Source of the DNA: a virus
IMG/VR virus record: IMGVR_UViG_3300028844_002816
Span: 1 to 22,466 of that record
Direction: 5' to 3' (one strand)
DNA length: 22,466 bases
Shown: positions 4,210 to 20,748 of the stretch, piece after piece
Layout of the letters: each line of letters starts with the position of its first letter
How positions within the stretch are numbered: position 1 is the first letter of the stretch
Notes under the pieces: generated by a model
What the model was told of the DNA's origin: nothing
What the model saw: the letters and a program-made list of their open reading frames with translations, nothing else
The model's database searches: none
Position numbers and translations under genes: made by a program

Positions 4210-7200
4210 ATGCCGATTACTCCATTAAGTTTAGAGGAATCTAAAAAGAAAAAAGAAGATGAAGAAGTTGGCTTTTTTGAATCAGCACTTGCTGGTGTAG
4301 CCACAGGTCTTTGGAATATACCAAAAGGTTTTGTATCGTTAGGTGCAGAACTATTTGATTTAGTAGGAGATACTAATACTGCTAAAGGTGTGGAACAATG
4401 GTTTGATGATGTCAATCCTTTTGACGATGAAGCTGAAGCAAGAACCATAGGTAAAATTACTCAAGCATTAACACAGATAGGTATACCTGCTGTCCAAGGT
4501 TATAAGATAGGATCTAAATTAGCTGCTAAAGCATTACAAGCTAAAAAAGGTAGTAAGTATATGAGTATGGGTAAGATAGGGTCTAAAATTATGAGCCCTA
4601 CTGCAGGTGGTGTAGTTGGAGGTGGTATTGGAGAAGCATTGGTAGCCGATGAAGATATAGGTACATTTGCTGATATGGCTAGAGGTACATCACTAGAACC
4701 TTATGCTATTACTATGATGGATAAAGAAGAAAAAGAAAGTGGTAGACAAGATGCATATAGAAAATTAAAAAACAGATTAAAGTTTGGTACTGAAGGTGCT
4801 TTATTTAATTTAGGTATTATTGGTGCAGGAAAAGGAATTAAAGCATTAAGAGGTTCAGGAGATAAAGTATTAGATGAATACTCATCTAATTCTATTAAAC
4901 AAAACTTTGAAAAGTTTGGAGAGTTTGGAATGTCTGCCAAAGGAGCTGGACCAAGAAGTACATTTGAAACTAAAGAATATTATGATGGTATGAAAAAAGC
5001 TGCAAATGTTGCAGCTACAAATAGTGTAAAAGAAATAGACACAAGTCTTAAAAATTTAGGTGATGAATTTTATGATCAATATTTAAATACAAGAAAAGGT
5101 ATTAATGAAACAAGGACAGGCCAAGAAATCTTTAGAGCCGATCTACAAGAGATTGTAAGTCCTACTAGTAAAAATTCACAAAGACTTTTAAATCCAGAAT
5201 CTAAAGCAAGAGTAGCAAAAGAACTAGATGCTGTAAAACAATTTAAAGAACTAGAAGAAGAGTTAGTAGATTTAGGTAGAGAACTAGATGGAGGAAAAGC
5301 CATTAGTGATGAACAAATTAGTAAAAAGTTATTAGAAGTTAATTCTAAAAAAGAAATTTTAAAAAGTAAAGTTCCTAATATAGAAGATTTGTCTAAATCT
5401 ATTTCGGAAAAAGGAGCTTTTACTGTTAAAGATTATGTAGAAATTGGAAAAGAATCTGATGCGTTTAAAAAGATTTTAGATAAAGTTAAAAGTGTTGGTG
5501 GAGATTCTACAAAATTAAGAGATGCAATTGTCAATGCAAGACTATCTATTGATAATATGTCTAGTAGATTATATTTACAAAATTTAGATGGTGAAACTGC
5601 TAAAGGAATTGCAGATAATTTTGGAAGATATACTACTACAGTTTATCAAGGTTTTGAACAAAAGGGTTTATTAGGATTTAATAAATACAAACCTACCGAA
5701 GAAATAATTGAAAGAAGTAAAGAAAAATATGTAAAGTATAGAATTGAAGAACTTCAAAGCACAGGAAGGCCAATTGATTCTGATACAATTTTAAAAGAAG
5801 CAGACGAAGAAGTTAGAAAATTTGCATCTAAAATAGCAAGTGATGAAGTTACACCTTATGATTTAGGAAATGCAAATGTAAGTGCAGAAGAATTAAAAAA
5901 TGTAAAAATAGATAATTCTATTTTAAAAAGAAAAGTTTTAAATCCTTGGCAAGAAGAATTATTTGGAGTTATTAAAGATCCTTCTTATACTTTTTTTGCA
6001 ACAGTGGGTAAACAAGCAAATTTAAACTACACATTAGATTATTTGAATAGTATTGCTAGACAGGGATCAGGACCCAATGGCTTTATTAAATCTGTAGACG
6101 AAGTAGAAGATGCAATATTAAAAAGTAAATATGGTTTTAGTAGAGAAATGGCTACAGCTAGAAGAGCTGAATTAATACAAAAAGGTTCTGCTGGAGAAAA
6201 AGAACTTATTGAACTTAATGAGCAATTAGCTAGAGCAAATACTGAAGCTATGTCAACACTATCTAATCCAAACAAATATAAAAAATATGTAAATACCACT
6301 AGTGTACCTACTCCATTAGATGGTAAATATATTAAAGCACCTACTTACGATCAAATTTTAGATGTAACTAGTGATTGGTTAAATAAAAGTAGTGTAGGAA
6401 CTTTTTATAAATATGCAGTTCTTACTCCTAAAGCAGGATCTCAAATTGCAAAAACAATTTTATCACCATTAACACATGTTAGAAATTTATTAAGTGCAGG
6501 AGCATTCGTAGCTGCGAATGGTGCAGCTTTTCCAAACTATGGAGATATTAAATTATTATTACCTCAATCATTAGGTGGATCTGGAGTTGCAAAACAAGCT
6601 TATGATCTTACAGGTAAAAGAATATTTGGAACCTTAAGCAAGGATGATGAAACATTAACACAAACATTATTAAAAGTTGGAGTAATAGATTCTGCTGTTC
6701 AACCTGGAGAAACTAAAAGATTATTAGGAGATATTCTTGTAGATCCAGCCGCAGTGGAAAGAGGGTTATATAATAAAGTTCCAAAAGATGTTGCAAGTAA
6801 AACTAAAAGAGGCTTGTTAAAAACATATGCTAAATTACAAGATGCATATGTAGCTGAAGATGATTTTTGGAAAATTATAAATTGGAACCTTGAAAAAAAT
6901 AGATACTCTGGAATTGCAAAAAATTTAGGTTTAAATAGTGATAATATTTTAAAAATTTTAGATGGAGATCAAGAGGCTATAAAAGCATTGGGAGATAATG
7001 GTCAAGCAATTGCAAGTTATTTTATAAAAAGAGCTCCAAGAATGGATTATATTAAAAGTGGTATAAATAACCAAGAAATTTATGAAAATTTTTTAAATGA
7101 AGTAGCAGGTAACTTAACAAGAAATCAAGTCCCTAACTATGCATACATTGGTAGAACAGGTAGAGCATTAAGACAAACTCCATTTGGAAACTTTATCGCT

Positions 7201-8556
7201 TTCCCATTGGAAATTATGAGAACAGGTAATAATATTTTACAACAATCCATAGATGACATCACTAGTGGTATCCCAGAATTAGTAGGACTAGGTTATAAAA
7301 GATTGTTTAGTTTTGGAGCAACAGTAGGTGGAGTTCCTTATGGTTTAACTGAAATGTTTAAAGCTAAAAATGATGTGACAGATAAAGAAATGCAGGCTTT
7401 AAGAAAATTTGTACCTGAATGGTCAGAAAATTCTACACTTTTACCTACTGGTAGAGATGAAGATGGTAACTTAAAATATATTGATTTTAGTTATATGAAC
7501 GCATACGATACTTTAATAAGACCTTTTAATGCAATACTTACTCAAATAGGAGAAGGTAATTTAAATAAAGAATCTTTAATGAAATCATTAGGAGAAGGTA
7601 TGATAGAAAGTAGTACTGAACTATTAAAACCTTATGCAACAGAATCTATTTTTACTGAAGCATTAATTGATTCTACTTTTAGAAGAGGTTATGGTAGATC
7701 AGGTAGAAGAATATGGAGCGAAGAAGATGAAACAATGGTTAAAATAGGAAAAGGAATGTTACATGTAGGTAAATCTTTAACACCTGGTTCTATTTCACAA
7801 ATGAAAAGATTGGGTCAAGCTGCAACAGGAACCACAGATAAATATGGTAATCTATATAATTTATCAGATGAGTTACCTGGACTGTGGGGTGGTAGAGAAA
7901 TAACTGCAGATCCAGCAAAAGCTTTAACATATATGACAACTAGATTTGGTTCTGATTTAAAAAAAGATAATAATTTATTTATAGGTCCTTTATTAAAAGG
8001 AGGAAGAGTAGATGCTGAAGATATTATTAATAAATATAAATATTCTGAATCTAGAAAATTTAATACTATGAAAGAAATGTATGCAAATATTGAAGCAGCT
8101 AGAGATTTAGGTGTGCCTGAATACAAAATAAGAAAAACAATAACTAGAAGAGGAATTCCTAAAGATGTTTTAAATAATTTATTTCAAGGAGTGTTTACTC
8201 CCGATAGACCTAATAAATTTTTTGTTACTAAAATGTCTCAAATAAATAGAGATTTAAATCAAAAAGAAGGAGTAAATTTACCTAATCCCTATTTTAAAGC
8301 TTTACCAGAAGTTAATGAATTAATAAATGGAAACAGAAGAATTAGTTTAAGTAATGGTAATTTATCTTTTTATAGAGAAAGAGATAATCAACAACAATCT
8401 TTAACTCCTATCGAACCATTAAAGTTACCACCATCTAATGCATCTGCAGCAGGAAAAACACCCGTACTAAATCCTGTAAATATTAATAACCAAGCAACAA
8501 CCGCGATCAGAGGACAACAACTGTTCAATGATCGAGACGAAATTACCTTTAGCTAA
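4210..8556 (+). CDS. Giant 1448-residue presumed internal virion / DNA-ejection protein
   Basis: This is the longest gene in the window. It is preceded by a near-perfect ribosome site AGGAGG at 4200-4205, four bases before the ATG. Near residue 20 is a Gly/Ala-rich amphipathic segment (ALAGVATGLWNIPKGFVSLG), and more hydrophobic Gly-rich patches occur around residues 95-150 and 195-215. Long charged coiled-coil-like stretches fill about 270-560. A conserved-looking block KTILSPLTHVRNLLSAGAF starts at residue 748. I recall similar blocks in large virion proteins of marine phages. No lysozyme, transglycosylase or peptidase motif was found by eye. Size, order after two other structural proteins and position before the lysis gene fit an ejection protein analogous to T7 gp16, but no sequence link to gp16 is claimed. 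A tail or capsid accessory role is possible. Confidence 0.82.
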   Translation: MPITPLSLEESKKKKEDEEVGFFESALAGVATGLWNIPKGFVSLGAELFDLVGDTNTAKGVEQWFDDVNPFDDEAEARTIGKITQALTQIGIPAVQGYKIGSKLAAKALQAKKGSKYMSMGKIGSKIMSPTAGGVVGGGIGEALVADEDIGTFADMARGTSLEPYAITMMDKEEKESGRQDAYRKLKNRLKFGTEGALFNLGIIGAGKGIKALRGSGDKVLDEYSSNSIKQNFEKFGEFGMSAKGAGPRSTFETKEYYDGMKKAANVAATNSVKEIDTSLKNLGDEFYDQYLNTRKGINETRTGQEIFRADLQEIVSPTSKNSQRLLNPESKARVAKELDAVKQFKELEEELVDLGRELDGGKAISDEQISKKLLEVNSKKEILKSKVPNIEDLSKSISEKGAFTVKDYVEIGKESDAFKKILDKVKSVGGDSTKLRDAIVNARLSIDNMSSRLYLQNLDGETAKGIADNFGRYTTTVYQGFEQKGLLGFNKYKPTEEIIERSKEKYVKYRIEELQSTGRPIDSDTILKEADEEVRKFASKIASDEVTPYDLGNANVSAEELKNVKIDNSILKRKVLNPWQEELFGVIKDPSYTFFATVGKQANLNYTLDYLNSIARQGSGPNGFIKSVDEVEDAILKSKYGFSREMATARRAELIQKGSAGEKELIELNEQLARANTEAMSTLSNPNKYKKYVNTTSVPTPLDGKYIKAPTYDQILDVTSDWLNKSSVGTFYKYAVLTPKAGSQIAKTILSPLTHVRNLLSAGAFVAANGAAFPNYGDIKLLLPQSLGGSGVAKQAYDLTGKRIFGTLSKDDETLTQTLLKVGVIDSAVQPGETKRLLGDILVDPAAVERGLYNKVPKDVASKTKRGLLKTYAKLQDAYVAEDDFWKIINWNLEKNRYSGIAKNLGLNSDNILKILDGDQEAIKALGDNGQAIASYFIKRAPRMDYIKSGINNQEIYENFLNEVAGNLTRNQVPNYAYIGRTGRALRQTPFGNFIAFPLEIMRTGNNILQQSIDDITSGIPELVGLGYKRLFSFGATVGGVPYGLTEMFKAKNDVTDKEMQALRKFVPEWSENSTLLPTGRDEDGNLKYIDFSYMNAYDTLIRPFNAILTQIGEGNLNKESLMKSLGEGMIESSTELLKPYATESIFTEALIDSTFRRGYGRSGRRIWSEEDETMVKIGKGMLHVGKSLTPGSISQMKRLGQAATGTTDKYGNLYNLSDELPGLWGGREITADPAKALTYMTTRFGSDLKKDNNLFIGPLLKGGRVDAEDIINKYKYSESRKFNTMKEMYANIEAARDLGVPEYKIRKTITRRGIPKDVLNNLFQGVFTPDRPNKFFVTKMSQINRDLNQKEGVNLPNPYFKALPEVNELINGNRRISLSNGNLSFYRERDNQQQSLTPIEPLKLPPSNASAAGKTPVLNPVNINNQATTAIRGQQLFNDRDEITFS

Positions 8557-8558
8557 TT

Positions 8559-9167
8559 ATGGCAATAGAACCCAAAAATACAAGAGAACATATCATATCA
8601 CTTTACGGACACGTGACCGGATTAAAAAAAGATATTTCACAGATTAAGAATAATCACTTGAAACATATCCACGAAGATGTAGAAAAATTGGGCGGTAAGA
8701 TAGACAAGGTCTATTGGGTTCTTTTAGCGGCAGCGGGAACTGCTGTACTTTTCGTGTTGGAAAAAAATCCTAACGCAGATCAAATAGAAAAATTAAAATT
8801 ACTTTGTGAAAATATACTGCAACCCGTGCGGGACCATTTTGGTAGAGTAAAGGTGACTAGCGGGTTCCGTTCAGTAGAGCTGTGCCTAGCCATAAATAGT
8901 TCAGCAAATAGCCAACATGCAAAAGCGGAGGCTTGCGATTTCGAATGTGTGGGAGTTGACAACGCAGAACTTGCTGATTGGATTAATAGAGAGCTTTCCT
9001 ATGATCAATTGATCGTCGAGTACTACACTCCTGGCGAACCCAATTCGGGCTGGATACATTGTAGTTGGATCGCAGAACAACCTAGAGCTAGTTTTTTATG
9101 GGCTTATAGATCTGAAGGTAAAACTAAATACAAGCCTATTCTTGGCAAAGCAAAAGATTTAGTATAA
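8559..9167 (+). CDS. Membrane-anchored M15-type peptidase (holin-like segment fused to endolysin)
   Basis: A 202-residue protein in two parts. Residues 1-50 are charged and helical (HIHEDVEKLGGKIDK). Residues 51-67 form one hydrophobic segment (VYWVLLAAAGTAVLFVL). From about 72 a peptidase M15_3-like domain (D-Ala-D-Ala carboxypeptidase / endolysin type) follows, with SGFRS at 101-105, the SxHxxxxAxD metal motif giving His120 and Asp127, and His167 in GWIHCSW as third zinc ligand. In relatives the holin-like part and the peptidase are usually separate. Here the usual N-terminal part of the peptidase domain appears to be missing at the junction. A positive N-terminus and single span predict the enzyme outside the inner membrane, where it would cut peptidoglycan. 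GC content is visibly higher than in the gene before it. It lies two bases after the 1448-residue gene. Confidence 0.85.
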   Translation: MAIEPKNTREHIISLYGHVTGLKKDISQIKNNHLKHIHEDVEKLGGKIDKVYWVLLAAAGTAVLFVLEKNPNADQIEKLKLLCENILQPVRDHFGRVKVTSGFRSVELCLAINSSANSQHAKAEACDFECVGVDNAELADWINRELSYDQLIVEYYTPGEPNSGWIHCSWIAEQPRASFLWAYRSEGKTKYKPILGKAKDLV

Positions 9168-9176
9168 ACAGCTCCA

Positions 9177-9554
9177 ATGGAGAATAGTTTACTAGTACAC
9201 AAACATTTAATTGTTAGAGCAGAAGCTTCTCGTCCACCAATGGATGAAGAGCAACTAACGGAATGGATGAAAGAATTTGTAGAATCTATAAATATGAAAA
9301 TATTTATGGGTCCTTATGTAAAGTATTGTTCAATGCCAGGTAACAGAGGTATTACTGCAGTTGCAATTATTGAAACATCACACATCGCTATGCATATTTG
9401 GGATGAACCTAATCCTGCATTAATGCAGTTTGATGTTTATAGTTGTGGCGAGTTTGATGTAGAAAAGATTTGTGAAAAGATTAAAAAAGATTTTGATATT
9501 AAGAAAATAGAATATAAGTTCTTGAACCGCGAAACGGGATTACAAGATATTTAA
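9177..9554 (+). CDS. speD: SpeD-like pyruvoyl-dependent decarboxylase (S-adenosylmethionine decarboxylase family)
   Basis: A 125-residue protein matching the short bacterial/archaeal AdoMet decarboxylase fold. This family self-cleaves at an internal Ser to make a pyruvoyl cofactor, then decarboxylates S-adenosylmethionine for spermidine synthesis. The signature here is ETSHIAMHIWDE at residues 66-77, equivalent to the usual ESHISIHTWPE. Ser68 is the predicted pyruvoyl precursor, His73 the processing His, and Cys90 in DVYSCG the proton donor. The residue before Ser68 is Thr67, not the usual Glu, and there are two extra residues between the Ser and the Cys. Because family members with other substrates (arginine or ornithine) are known, the substrate is uncertain. 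It follows the lysis gene by nine bases and ends tail to tail with a minus-strand gene, stops overlapping by three bases. It is an auxiliary metabolic gene. Confidence 0.82.
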   Translation: MENSLLVHKHLIVRAEASRPPMDEEQLTEWMKEFVESINMKIFMGPYVKYCSMPGNRGITAVAIIETSHIAMHIWDEPNPALMQFDVYSCGEFDVEKICEKIKKDFDIKKIEYKFLNRETGLQDI

Positions 9555-9757
9555 CGACAGATACATCCAACAAAATTACCACTACCATCATTCATAATAT
9601 GTAAATTTAAACTATCAACATACCCAGATAATTTTTCTCTTAATATATTACAAAGATTTAAACAATCTACTTCTGCAGTTATAACTATACCTTCCATAAT
9701 TTCTTTTGTAACAGGTATTAGTTGATACAATCCATCATTTAAAATTATTAAATCCAA
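9551..9757 (-). CDS. Small hypothetical protein, downstream partner of the helicase
   Basis: A 68-residue protein read on the minus strand. Its ATG at 9757-9755 lies inside the end of the helicase gene, with a ten-base overlap, as expected for a coupled second gene. It contains four cysteines (VDCLNLCN in the middle and GCICR at the very end) and hydrophobic stretches, but no clear signal peptide or metal-site spacing. I do not recognise the family. Its TAA overlaps that of the + strand speD-like gene, so two transcription units converge with no space between them. The overlap and open frame make it likely real, but the evidence is only positional. Confidence 0.6.
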   Translation of the reverse strand: MDLIILNDGLYQLIPVTKEIMEGIVITAEVDCLNLCNILREKLSGYVDSLNLHIMNDGSGNFVGCICR

Positions 9758-11181
9758 TCTCTTAACTCCTCTCCCATAATTTCACTAGCAATATTTATTT
9801 TTTTACGCAAAGCTTTTTTAATTTTTTCATCAACAGTTTTTGGTGCTACGATATCAACATATGTTACAGATTTTTTCTGACCAATTCTATGTGCTCTATC
9901 TTCTGATTGTAATCTTTTCTCAAGATCATAACCATTAGAATAATAAATAACATTACTTGCAGCAGTCAAAGTTATACCATAACCACCCGTTTGTGGATTA
10001 CCAACAAAAAATTTAACAGGAGAATCGGGATCTTGAAACTTCTCAATAGCTTCTTGTCTTTTTTCTGACGAAATAGCACCATAATATTGTACTACAGAAT
10101 TTTCTCCGTGTTTTTTTTTAACTTCTTTTACAATATGTTCTATGTCATAGATATAGTTAGCCCAAATAATAGCCTTACCTTCCATTTCATCAATAACATT
10201 TAACAGCTCATCTAATCTATTATTTTTAATCTCGGTTATTGTACCATCATCATTCTTTAAATGACCACAAGTGATCTGATGCAAACGCATCATTTGTGTA
10301 AGCACGTGGGGTGCTGTTGCCATCTTACCTTTTAAAGAAGCGAGAGCCGCGGATTTCATAGTAGAATAAGCCTTACCTTGTTCTTCAGTAAGTTCTACTT
10401 GTCGTTCAATATATATTTTTTCTGGTAAATCTAGACAATGTTCTTTTAAAACTCTGTAAGAAAAAGCTTTTAAAATTTCTGCTAATTCATCTAATCTCTT
10501 ATAACCACCTACAATTTGTACTCTACGGCCACCAAAATTTCTATCTAACATATTGGCGTATCTGTTTCTAAAAGTATAATAAGAAGTAAAACCTAGTAAG
10601 TGTTCATTTAAAAAAACACATTGAGTATATAAATCTAACGGTGATTTAGTTACAGGAGAACCTGTAAGTATTCTTCTGTAGTTAGCAAGTTTACCAATAG
10701 ACAAAATAGATTTAGTTCTTTTAGCAGTAGGTGTTTTAATACTTGTTGATTCATCAATAGCCATTAAAGTTCTATGTGTTCTTAAAAATTTACCTGCAAA
10801 ATCTAAACCTTTTTTAGTACTGAATGCTTCTACATTCATAATTAAAATATGAAGATCATATCCTGTTTCAAATAACGAATCATATTCTTTTTGTTTTGTT
10901 TTAGAAGTTAAAGCTGTCCATAATACCATCTTGGGTTGTATGTGACTAGCCAAATGTGTTGGAATTTCTTGAGACATCCAATTTCTATAAACACCTTTTG
11001 GTGCTATAATTAATGCCCCATTTATTTTACCTTTATCATAAAGCATAGCTATATTATCTACTAACACTTTAGATTTACCTGTACCCATTTCCATAAAATA
11101 ACCATATTCAGTTTTATCCCACGATTTTTCTAACGCAGTTAATTGATGTGCATATGGTTTAGTTTTAAATTTATAATCCAT
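9748..11181 (-). CDS. SNF2-family (superfamily 2) DNA helicase / translocase
   Basis: A 477-residue protein when started at the ATG at 11181-11179. A longer reading from TTG at 11208 would begin inside the promoter -10 box, so it is unlikely. Helicase signatures appear in order: a Q-like YAHQ near residues 10-13, motif I GTGKS at 33-37, motif Ia IIAPKGVYRNW, motif II DEST at 143-146, motif III LTGSP at 172-176, and motif VI RAHRIGQ at 429-435. This set is typical of SNF2-like ATPases, which pump along double-stranded DNA. In phages these may remodel replication forks or displace bound proteins. It is the first gene of a two-gene minus-strand unit surrounded by + strand genes, with its own promoter. 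The role in phage replication is inferred from the adjoining primase and polymerase genes. Confidence 0.9.
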   Translation of the reverse strand: MDYKFKTKPYAHQLTALEKSWDKTEYGYFMEMGTGKSKVLVDNIAMLYDKGKINGALIIAPKGVYRNWMSQEIPTHLASHIQPKMVLWTALTSKTKQKEYDSLFETGYDLHILIMNVEAFSTKKGLDFAGKFLRTHRTLMAIDESTSIKTPTAKRTKSILSIGKLANYRRILTGSPVTKSPLDLYTQCVFLNEHLLGFTSYYTFRNRYANMLDRNFGGRRVQIVGGYKRLDELAEILKAFSYRVLKEHCLDLPEKIYIERQVELTEEQGKAYSTMKSAALASLKGKMATAPHVLTQMMRLHQITCGHLKNDDGTITEIKNNRLDELLNVIDEMEGKAIIWANYIYDIEHIVKEVKKKHGENSVVQYYGAISSEKRQEAIEKFQDPDSPVKFFVGNPQTGGYGITLTAASNVIYYSNGYDLEKRLQSEDRAHRIGQKKSVTYVDIVAPKTVDEKIKKALRKKINIASEIMGEELRDWI

Positions 11182-11201
11182 AATTATTTTATTCTTTCTA
11201 G

Positions 11202-11229
11202 TTGACAATTATATAAACCCTATGTTAAT
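11202..11229 (+). promoter_or_regulatory. Forward promoter for the replication block, overlapping the reverse promoter
   Basis: A perfect TTGACA at 11202-11207 is followed after 16 bases by GTTAAT at 11224-11229, which matches four of six bases of the -10 consensus. A start near 11236 would leave about 35 bases before the ATG at 11271. The two -35 boxes are an inverted pair, each lying at the other's start site, so the two promoters could not be occupied at once. The forward -10 is weak, so this promoter may need an activator. Confidence 0.4.
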
Positions 11230-11238
11230 GTCTGTCAA
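11208..11238 (-). promoter_or_regulatory. Sigma-70-like promoter for the minus-strand helicase unit
   Basis: Read on the minus strand, a perfect TTGACA occupies 11238-11233. TATAAT lies at 11213-11208 with a 19-base spacer. TATATA, two bases earlier at 11215-11210, gives the ideal 17-base spacer. Transcription would start near 11202, about 20 bases before the ATG at 11181. This supports that ATG over the TTG at 11208, which is part of the -10 box. Confidence 0.6.
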
Positions 11239-11270
11239 TAGAATAATAGAATTAAATAGAAAGTTAAAAA

Positions 11271-11678
11271 ATGAAAAATAAAATATTTGAATTATATAAA
11301 CCAAAATCTTTGGCAGAGTTTTTACAATTCTATAAAGACCATCCTGAAGAAAAATTTGTTTATGTATTACAACATCCACCAGCTAATATAAATATATTAG
11401 GTGCATCTGATTTTGGATATCTAGTTATTTGTTTGCCTAACTATGGTCCAGATTCTCAAATAATATTTTCTTCAAGTCCTTTTGTTTTTAAAATGCAAAA
11501 AAATTTAAGAGACTTTAGAGAACAAGATTATGTATTGCTAACAGGAGATCCAGCTATTATAGGTATTTCTTGTGCAATCGTTTGTGATAAAACAAACGGT
11601 AAATTTAATCTCTTGAAATGGGATCGACGAGAGAGTAAATACTATCCAATAAATTTCGATCTCTATCAGAAAGGATAA
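11271..11678 (+). CDS. Hypothetical protein, first gene of the replication block
   Basis: A 135-residue soluble-looking protein with a mix of beta-type hydrophobic segments (FVYVLQHPP, YLVICLPNYG, IIGISCAIVCD) and no membrane span long enough to be certain. I do not recognise the family. It starts about 35 bases downstream of the predicted forward promoter start and ends two bases before the next gene. The position at the head of the early-looking operon, before the coiled-coil and ssDNA-binding genes, suggests an early function, but this is inference. The coding pattern (AGA, AAA, TTA use) matches its neighbours, so the gene itself is well supported. Confidence 0.78.
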   Translation: MKNKIFELYKPKSLAEFLQFYKDHPEEKFVYVLQHPPANINILGASDFGYLVICLPNYGPDSQIIFSSSPFVFKMQKNLRDFREQDYVLLTGDPAIIGISCAIVCDKTNGKFNLLKWDRRESKYYPINFDLYQKG

Positions 11679-11680
11679 AT

Positions 11681-12247
11681 ATGAGTAATGAAGTAAATGA
11701 AATGATGATAAAAGATTCTAAAGATCTTTTAGATTCAGTTGAGGTAACTACTATAGCTGCAGAGTGTCAGAAGTTAAAACAAAAAGAAGACGAGATTGCA
11801 GATCTAGAAGAAAAGTTAAAATCTAAAAAACAAGAGGCAGATGATATTAGTTCTAGAGTTATACCAGAACTATTGGCAGAACAAAACTTAACTGAAATAA
11901 AGTTAGGTGATGGATCTGCAGTAACAGTTAAAAAAGAATTTAGGTGTACTCTTCCAAAAGATGAAGTGAAGAGAGAAGCAGCCTATCAATGGCTTCGTGA
12001 CAATAAGTTAGAGGATATTATTAAAAACAATGTCTTTGTAACTTTTGGTCGTGGGGAAGATGACAAGGCAGAGCAATTGCTCAACCTTGCGGCAGAAAAT
12101 GGCTTTCAACCACAACAGAAATCTGATGTGGCTTGGGCTACTTTAACTGCCCTGTTTAAGGAGCGTGTCGAGGCCGGTCTCGACATGCCTTCTGAAGTCT
12201 TTAATACATGGATTAAAGATAAAACTAAAATAAGCCGGAAAAAATAA
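11681..12247 (+). CDS. Coiled-coil protein of unknown function in the replication block
   Basis: A 188-residue protein. Residues about 25-60 form a clear heptad-like coiled coil rich in Lys, Glu and Leu (QKEDEIADLEEKLKSKKQEA). A compact domain follows, with GDGSAVTVKKEFRCTLP near residues 85-100, AYQWLRDNKLEDI near 108-120 and FVTFGRGED near 127-135. It ends in a basic tail KISRKK. I do not recognise a named family. It sits immediately before the presumed ssDNA-binding gene and is separated from it by 12 bases that hold the GGAGGA ribosome site. A DNA-metabolism role is inferred from place only. The last third has a higher GC content than the first, including two short palindromes at 12071-12082 and 12166-12185. 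Confidence 0.78.
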   Translation: MSNEVNEMMIKDSKDLLDSVEVTTIAAECQKLKQKEDEIADLEEKLKSKKQEADDISSRVIPELLAEQNLTEIKLGDGSAVTVKKEFRCTLPKDEVKREAAYQWLRDNKLEDIIKNNVFVTFGRGEDDKAEQLLNLAAENGFQPQQKSDVAWATLTALFKERVEAGLDMPSEVFNTWIKDKTKISRKK

Positions 12248-19882: not shown

Positions 19883-19966
19883 ATGAATTACTATTTTACA
19901 GGGACTTTAATAATATTACTTGTTCTAATGGCTCTTTTTATAGAACCAGGATACGTACCTAAATGA
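19883..19966 (+). CDS. Tiny single-span membrane peptide
   Basis: A 27-residue peptide, mostly hydrophobic: residues 6-19 span FTGTLIILLVLMAL and the end is IEPGYVPK. A single membrane segment is likely. The TGA stop overlaps the next ATG in the ATGA pattern, so translation is probably coupled to the following membrane protein. GAGG at 19870-19873 could serve as ribosome site. Tiny peptides of this kind occur in marine phages. A role in lysis or host membrane change is possible but not shown. Confidence 0.6.
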   Translation: MNYYFTGTLIILLVLMALFIEPGYVPK

Positions 19967-20385
19967 GTAACAAACCATTACATATCGGAGAAGAGGCAGC
20001 CGTGCAGATGCCTATGAAGACGGTAGTCTCATTGATAATTATTGTAGCACTTGGCACGATGGGTTATTTTCAGATTGTTGAACGTCTTAATATTGCAGAC
20101 ACTAGACTTCAGTTAATGGAGAAAGATTTAACAGAGAACACAGACTTTAGAATAAAGTGGCCACGTGGACAACTAGGTTCACTACCCGCGGATTCTGAGC
20201 AATTCATGTTAATCGAAGATCTCTATAAACAGGTAGAAAAACTACAACAAAATATTGAAATGAACATGAGTAATAAATTAAAAATAGAATTTATGGAAGG
20301 TCAGATCAATGAATTATTAGTAGATGTAGATGAATTAAAAGATGCCGACAGAGAGATAGTATATAAAAATGGAACGAGTAACTAG
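19963..20385 (+). CDS. Membrane-anchored coiled-coil protein
   Basis: A 140-residue protein. Residues 1-19 are soluble, 20-37 form one hydrophobic span (TVVSLIIIVALGTMGYFQ), and the rest is a long helical region with heptads (LNIADTRLQLMEKDL, and IEDLYKQVEKLQQNIEMNM), with a central RIKWPRGQLGSLPADSEQF stretch. The pattern is an inner-membrane anchor with an outside coiled coil. This recalls the inner spanin of phages, but I see no lipobox partner next to it, so the name is not used. It follows the tiny membrane peptide with a four-base overlap and overlaps the next gene by 17 bases. Function unknown. Confidence 0.7.
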   Translation: MSNKPLHIGEEAAVQMPMKTVVSLIIIVALGTMGYFQIVERLNIADTRLQLMEKDLTENTDFRIKWPRGQLGSLPADSEQFMLIEDLYKQVEKLQQNIEMNMSNKLKIEFMEGQINELLVDVDELKDADREIVYKNGTSN

Positions 20386-20533
20386 AAAAATTTTAGATTA
20401 TCTTTATGAAATGAAACGAACTGTTACCAGACAACGTTTACACAAAGATTTAAAAAAAGAAGTTGAAACTGGCAAGAATGGTACACAAAAATATGTTGTA
20501 AAACAAGGGGTCAACAAAGGTAAAATAGTATGA
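20369..20533 (+). CDS. Small basic protein, unknown function
   Basis: A 54-residue, strongly basic protein (ERVTRKILDYLYEMKRTVTR, then KKEVETGKNGTQKYVVKQGVNKGK). It has no cysteine and no membrane segment. Its frame is open from the ATG at 20369, inside the end of the preceding gene, to a TGA that shares an ATGA with the next gene. The pairing of two overlaps with a clean basic composition supports a real gene. It may bind nucleic acid, which is inference from charge. Confidence 0.65.
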   Translation: MERVTRKILDYLYEMKRTVTRQRLHKDLKKEVETGKNGTQKYVVKQGVNKGKIV

Positions 20534-20748
20534 TTTTAGAAACTGTAGTAGCACTTCTTATGTTAGTAAACAATGAGATCAAAGAACATAGAATACAAGT
20601 AGAAGGTATGGCTCAATGTTTACGTGGTAAACGTAAAGCGGAAAGACAATATCAAGAAAATGTACAGTATCAATGTATAAAATCTAAAGCAGAACTTGAG
20701 AAAAATATTGATGGATCTTTATCAATTAAAAAACTAATATTAGAATAA
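20530..20748 (+). CDS. Small exported-type protein with two cysteines
   Basis: A 72-residue protein. The first 14 residues (MILETVVALLMLVN) are hydrophobic and look like a weak signal or anchor. The rest is hydrophilic with MAQCLRGKRKAER and QYQCIKSKAELEKNIDG carrying one Cys each, so a disulphide is possible if it is exported. I recall closely similar proteins in marine phages, always unassigned. It overlaps the gene before it by four bases and the gene after it by one. Confidence 0.72.
   Translation: MILETVVALLMLVNNEIKEHRIQVEGMAQCLRGKRKAERQYQENVQYQCIKSKAELEKNIDGSLSIKKLILE

Follow-up and report, generated by a model that had tools for sequence, protein, structure and literature searches.

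A holin-like membrane segment joined in frame to an N-terminally truncated M15 peptidase in a marine phage contig

Results

The window, that is the whole stretch of 22,466 bases of viral DNA analysed in this study, is probably a fragment (the genomes of its relatives measure 53-61 kb). It contains a gene that begins with ATG and keeps one frame open through two parts, first a holin-like membrane protein and then an endolysin, as is characteristic of a holin-endolysin fusion (Table 1). A preliminary description had proposed a charged coil, a hydrophobic span at residues 51-67 and a peptidase with the ligands His120, Asp127 and His167, and this anatomy was confirmed by sequence and hydropathy. 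The span is the most hydrophobic stretch of 17 residues in the fused protein (mean Kyte-Doolittle value 2.28), and no 17-mer of the peptidase part exceeded 0.81. All three zinc ligands were 100% conserved among 100 distinct relatives. Pfam Peptidase_M15_3 (PF08291) matched residues 83-154 (3e-10) with 40.6 bits, the curated cut-off being 23.2 bits, and the PHROG 894 endolysin profile matched residues 72-200 (1.2e-29). However, the PF08291 match began only at profile position 28, compared to position 2 in the full-length relative, which scored 63.9 bits. The N-terminal segment of the M15_3 family, NF..EL.KS.TA.R.GI.N (profile positions about 1-27), is thus deleted in the fusion. An ATG near the join that would allow separate synthesis of the peptidase was not found.

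Table 1. Genes and features in and around the fused gene (window coordinates)
Feature	Position	Strand	Description
Fused gene	8559..9167	+	202 aa; holin-like membrane protein (residues 1-69) and M15_3 peptidase without its first 25 residues (70-202)
Gene-1 part	8559..8765	+	charged coil (residues 1-50), one hydrophobic span (51-67, window 8709-8759)
Deletion join	8765..8766	+	95 nt of L003-L006 missing, 0-1 nt microhomology (DNA alignment)
M15_3 peptidase core	8766..9164	+	corresponds to the protein of the relatives from residue 26 onwards
Zinc ligands	8916-8918, 8937-8939, 9057-9059	+	H120, D127, H167
Upstream gene	4210..8556	+	1448 aa, directly upstream of gene 1
S-adenosylmethionine decarboxylase	9177..9554	+	PF02675 (2.3e-18), next gene downstream
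140-aa protein	19963..20385	+	N-terminal hydrophobic span and coil (PHROG 20984); upstream of M15 in relatives
72-aa protein	20530..20748	+	N-terminal hydrophobic stretch (PHROG 24646); upstream of M15 in relatives

The large gene directly upstream had no match in Pfam or PHROG. Relatives likewise have a large putative structural gene directly ahead of gene 1, as we call the separate homologue of the N-terminal part; in HTVC027P the counterpart of the window's upstream gene is annotated as 'putative structural protein'. The S-adenosylmethionine decarboxylase is also annotated in several other pelagiphages. In HTVC027P the genes of PHROG 20984 and PHROG 24646 lie directly upstream of M15, whereas in the window they stand without it; they are possible second lysis membrane genes. 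In another locus (L068:2719-3441) the reading frame of a gene of the PHROG 24646 family continues into M15, which is itself intact and still has an internal ATG of its own; this join is an independent candidate fusion. Since the small membrane genes lie very tight against M15, fusions can arise by small changes.

The same two domains in the same order, again with a large structural gene upstream, are found as a separate pair in HTVC023P-type pelagiphages (for instance phage 023Pt_psg01, URG13131.1/URG13132.1, and the IMG/VR loci L003-L006), with about 93-95% amino acid identity in L003-L006. There, gene 1 encodes 72 aa (about 93-94% identical to the window part) and is abutted by an M15 gene of 158 aa (about 94-95% identical over the common part) in a different frame. 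Over all separate copies in L003, L005, L082 and L085, which encode 71-72 aa, the gene-1 part showed 94-100% identity. In the DNA alignment, the window is shorter at the join than L003-L006 by exactly 95 nt. Of these, 20 nt comprise the last three codons of gene 1, its stop codon and the spacer with AGGAG ahead of M15, and the remaining 75 nt are the first 25 codons of M15 (MQLSRNFSLQELIKSDTAIRKGIDN in L003). The Shine-Dalgarno sequence and the start codon of the peptidase therefore lie within the lost stretch, and its removal places both genes in one frame. That the outcome is in frame is not beyond chance, as one third of deletions preserve the frame; the pairing of two homologous domains is far beyond it. 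A homopolymer error as the origin of the frame was rejected, for the run of A at the join corresponds to a blunt deletion between L003/L006-type sequences with no extra indel. Because the 95-nt deletion at 8765/8766 is clean relative to L003-L006, the alignments support an origin of the fusion by deletion between two neighbouring genes. This agrees with the preliminary description, which had named two separate genes in related marine phages with a peptidase starting some 20-25 residues earlier (25 codons in the loci compared) and had suggested that a deletion joined them right before NPNADQIE. The main paper on HTVC023P-type phages (PMC9599517) is silent on peptidase, holin and endolysin.

A second contig is affected at almost the same site. 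In L296:1692-2148 the M15 gene is frameshifted by a 20-nt deletion a few bases beyond the position of the window's join; this contig is about 80% identical to its nearest relatives among the loci compared. This site may be prone to deletion, or else defects of this sort arise repeatedly in assemblies.

We searched about 325 other loci from IMG/VR, single-cell and isolate records with gene-1 queries of three subtypes and with M15 queries. Of these loci, 253 contained gene 1 (132 distinct 3' regions) and 271 contained M15 (165 distinct genes), and none of the approximately 325 loci held both domains in one reading frame. The exact join occurs once in the window record. It was not detected in other viral contigs with an exact 29-mer or with a degenerate 26-mer for EKNPNADQI, in collections that may omit the records nearest to the window. 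M15 directly follows gene 1 in 98 of the 132 distinct regions, mostly with an overlap of 4 or 1 nt or a gap of 8 nt. The two genes hence form a tight cassette, though exceptions exist: HTVC027P has gene 1 by itself behind the structural gene, with M15 about 45 kb away on the linear record, and in HTVC033P (L178:3001-3644) gene 1 is followed, with a 1-nt overlap, by a lysozyme/amidase gene (PHROG 822, 8.8e-55).

The separate homologues of gene 1 encode 64-73 aa with one hydrophobic span. Profile searches gave weak hits to the 'hemolysin' PHROGs 1193 and 937 in 6 and 2 of 32 family members, respectively (best E 0.004). Membership in the XhlA family was rejected, since the Pfam profile (PF10779) had no match in the window record at E values up to 10. 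As gene 1 adjoins two unrelated types of lysin, M15 and the amidase of HTVC033P, we regard it with fair support from context and shape as a membrane protein of the lysis cassette and a holin candidate; it is small, carries a membrane span and lies beside an endolysin gene. The label 'holin-like' of the preliminary description can accordingly be kept on the grounds of context and shape, not of family profiles.

The segment missing from the peptidase is strongly conserved. In an alignment of about 97 distinct relatives N, E, L, K, S, A, R, I and N were identical in 98-100%, and in a second alignment L3, N6, E11, L12, K14, S15, A18, R20, I23 and N25 were invariant. Altogether, the segment contains about eleven near-invariant residues. 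AlphaFold modelled residues 1-30 of the full-length M15 protein of L003 with pLDDT values of 95-97. The closest solved fold to this protein and to the fusion model was PDB 1lbu, a zinc D-Ala-D-Ala peptidase of the M15 family, which is a cellular enzyme with 16-19% sequence identity over the aligned residues. A search for solved homologues by sequence found nothing with the single sequence and only 1lbu with a profile (E 0.04). The L003 model matched 1lbu with a Z score of 13.8 (2.5 A, 123 residues) over model positions 1-155, that is from its first residue. Judged from alignments and predicted structure, few parts of the enzyme are as conserved as the lost segment, which also belongs to its fold. 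The model of the fusion retained an M15-like core (1lbu, Z score 12.3). Its blocks at residues 91-120, which adjoin the zinc site, were predicted with mean pLDDT values of 73-88 compared to 96-98 in the full-length model. As the input alignments of the two models differ, this drop is a hint only; impaired folding or activity is likely, not certain.

The retained part of the peptidase showed no deviation at invariant positions in comparison with 100 distinct relatives, and its dN/dS ratio against near relatives (about 0.075) is ordinary for the family, although most of the underlying divergence probably predates the deletion. N113 and C126 were considered as signs of decay and rejected, since 6 and 7 of 100 relatives, respectively, have these residues too. 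The invariant residues kept and the normal dN/dS ratio make a long-dead pseudogene unlikely; a recent one is compatible with these data.

Discussion

In this study we describe a gene in which a holin-like membrane segment runs directly into an M15 peptidase. We favour, with about even confidence, the reading that it is a private in-frame deletion allele whose product would be a membrane-tethered, probably impaired peptidase. In this reading, a clean, lineage-private deletion of 95 nt fused the two closely linked lysis genes of an HTVC023P/023Pt-like pelagiphage; the reading builds on the observed anatomy of the gene, its deletion relative to the relatives, its uniqueness among the loci examined and the conservation of the lost part. 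As the peptidase's own Shine-Dalgarno sequence and ATG are gone, the fusion would be translated only from the start of gene 1. The single span would insert the product into the membrane so that the coil faces the cytoplasm and the peptidase lies on the outer side, which would hold the tethered peptidase in a fixed 1:1 ratio with the holin-like part. Since the deletion also removed the conserved first 25 residues, peptidase activity would most likely be reduced or lost. Such an allele might be tolerated through a backup, presumably a second lysin elsewhere in the genome, or be on its way out. As the window covers 22.5 kb of an expected 53-61 kb, a backup lysin is conjectural for this phage.

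The independent frameshifting deletion of 20 nt in L296 indicates that broken M15 alleles of such a kind do occur. On the other hand, the absence of decay in the retained peptidase and the fact that AlphaFold still builds the core without the lost segment count against impairment. Moreover, the deletion is known from the assembled contig alone and may be absent from the phage itself.

This last point leads to the first alternative, a chimeric library molecule or a misjoin between two co-occurring mosaic phage genomes. The fusion occurs in one contig only, and the nearest relative among the loci compared switches at the join, from L163 (6566-8763) to L011/L003 (8760-12144). Thus, the cassette border within 6566-12144 is either a recombination boundary or a sign that the contig is chimeric. 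The deletion in L296 at nearly the same spot would fit an artefact as well. However, the joined ends share 0-1 nt, which offers little to a misjoin driven by overlaps or k-mers, switches of the nearest relative are to be expected in mosaic phages, and the join left both domains open and in frame, an outcome with a chance of one in three. Taken together, we regard an artefact as rather unlikely, yet as an explanation that has to be taken seriously.

A working membrane-anchored lysin is a further alternative. Here the holin-like span would serve as signal anchor and bring the peptidase into the periplasm, where the enzyme would cut peptidoglycan peptides without having to be released by a separate holin. 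The frame that is open through both parts, the complete set of zinc ligands, the ordinary evolution of the retained part and a core that is still predicted to fold are in line with such a function, as is L068, where another small hydrophobic gene is independently joined in frame to an intact M15. Opposed to this are the absence of a conserved and folded N-terminal segment of the enzyme, the single occurrence of the fusion and an in-frame outcome that chance provides in one third of deletions. The window also still contains a putative pair of membrane genes (PHROG 20984 and 24646) that lie directly upstream of M15 in other relatives. We consider a working anchored lysin unlikely. Because of what the deletion removed, a self-sufficient lysin is less likely than an impaired private allele, and the suggestion of the preliminary description that the product is self-targeting and needs no holin is not supported so far. 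The more specific proposal, that one deletion turned the two-gene cassette of a SAR11-type phage into one functional anchored M15 lysin whose anchor replaces the M15_3 N-terminal segment and which lyses a Gram-negative host, appears quite improbable.

Membrane-borne lysins are known from other phages. In the signal-anchor-release (SAR) endolysins, such as Lyz of P1 and that of R21, a hydrophobic segment of the lysin itself brings the enzyme to the membrane; this anchor is N-terminal, weakly hydrophobic and later released. The likeness to the window's fusion is loose, as the span of the latter follows a charged coil of 50 residues and derives from a holin-like gene. A closer precedent, which also lends some weight to an anchored lysin, is the natural holin-endolysin fusion of Clostridium sporogenes (WP_163247266.1), which has a holin of the TpeE family and was reported from six genomes (PMC9527704). 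As in the window, a holin-like N-terminal part is translationally fused to an endolysin, and the holin was suggested as a possible membrane anchor; hence, the idea of a holin-tethered lysin is not new. In contrast to the window, the host is Gram-positive and the holin belongs to another family, and loss of a conserved enzyme segment is not described in the available part of the source (PMC9527704). Particular to the window are the marine origin of a phage with a Gram-negative host, the type of enzyme (M15) and the missing N-terminus of that enzyme.

Finally, it is hardly conceivable that the cassette was fused ancestrally or is commonly fused, one of the two findings that the preliminary description had named as fatal to its account, since none of the 253 gene-1 and 271 M15 loci is fused, the two genes lie far apart in HTVC027P and gene 1 precedes an amidase in HTVC033P; this form is excluded in the loci examined.

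The fusion may thus represent a private allele, possibly a weakened one, and not a novel strategy of lysis. Should it turn out to be a defective allele or an artefact, it cautions against taking fusions seen in single contigs as new strategies of lysis. If it proves genuine and its product works, a phage with a Gram-negative marine host would have a natural holin-endolysin fusion that a single deletion separates from an ancestor with two genes, and one could test on it directly whether cells are lysed by a lysin that its own holin-like anchor tethers. In addition, the comparison assigns the gene of about 72 aa found in HTVC023P-type pelagiphages to the lysis cassette, where it is a candidate holin.
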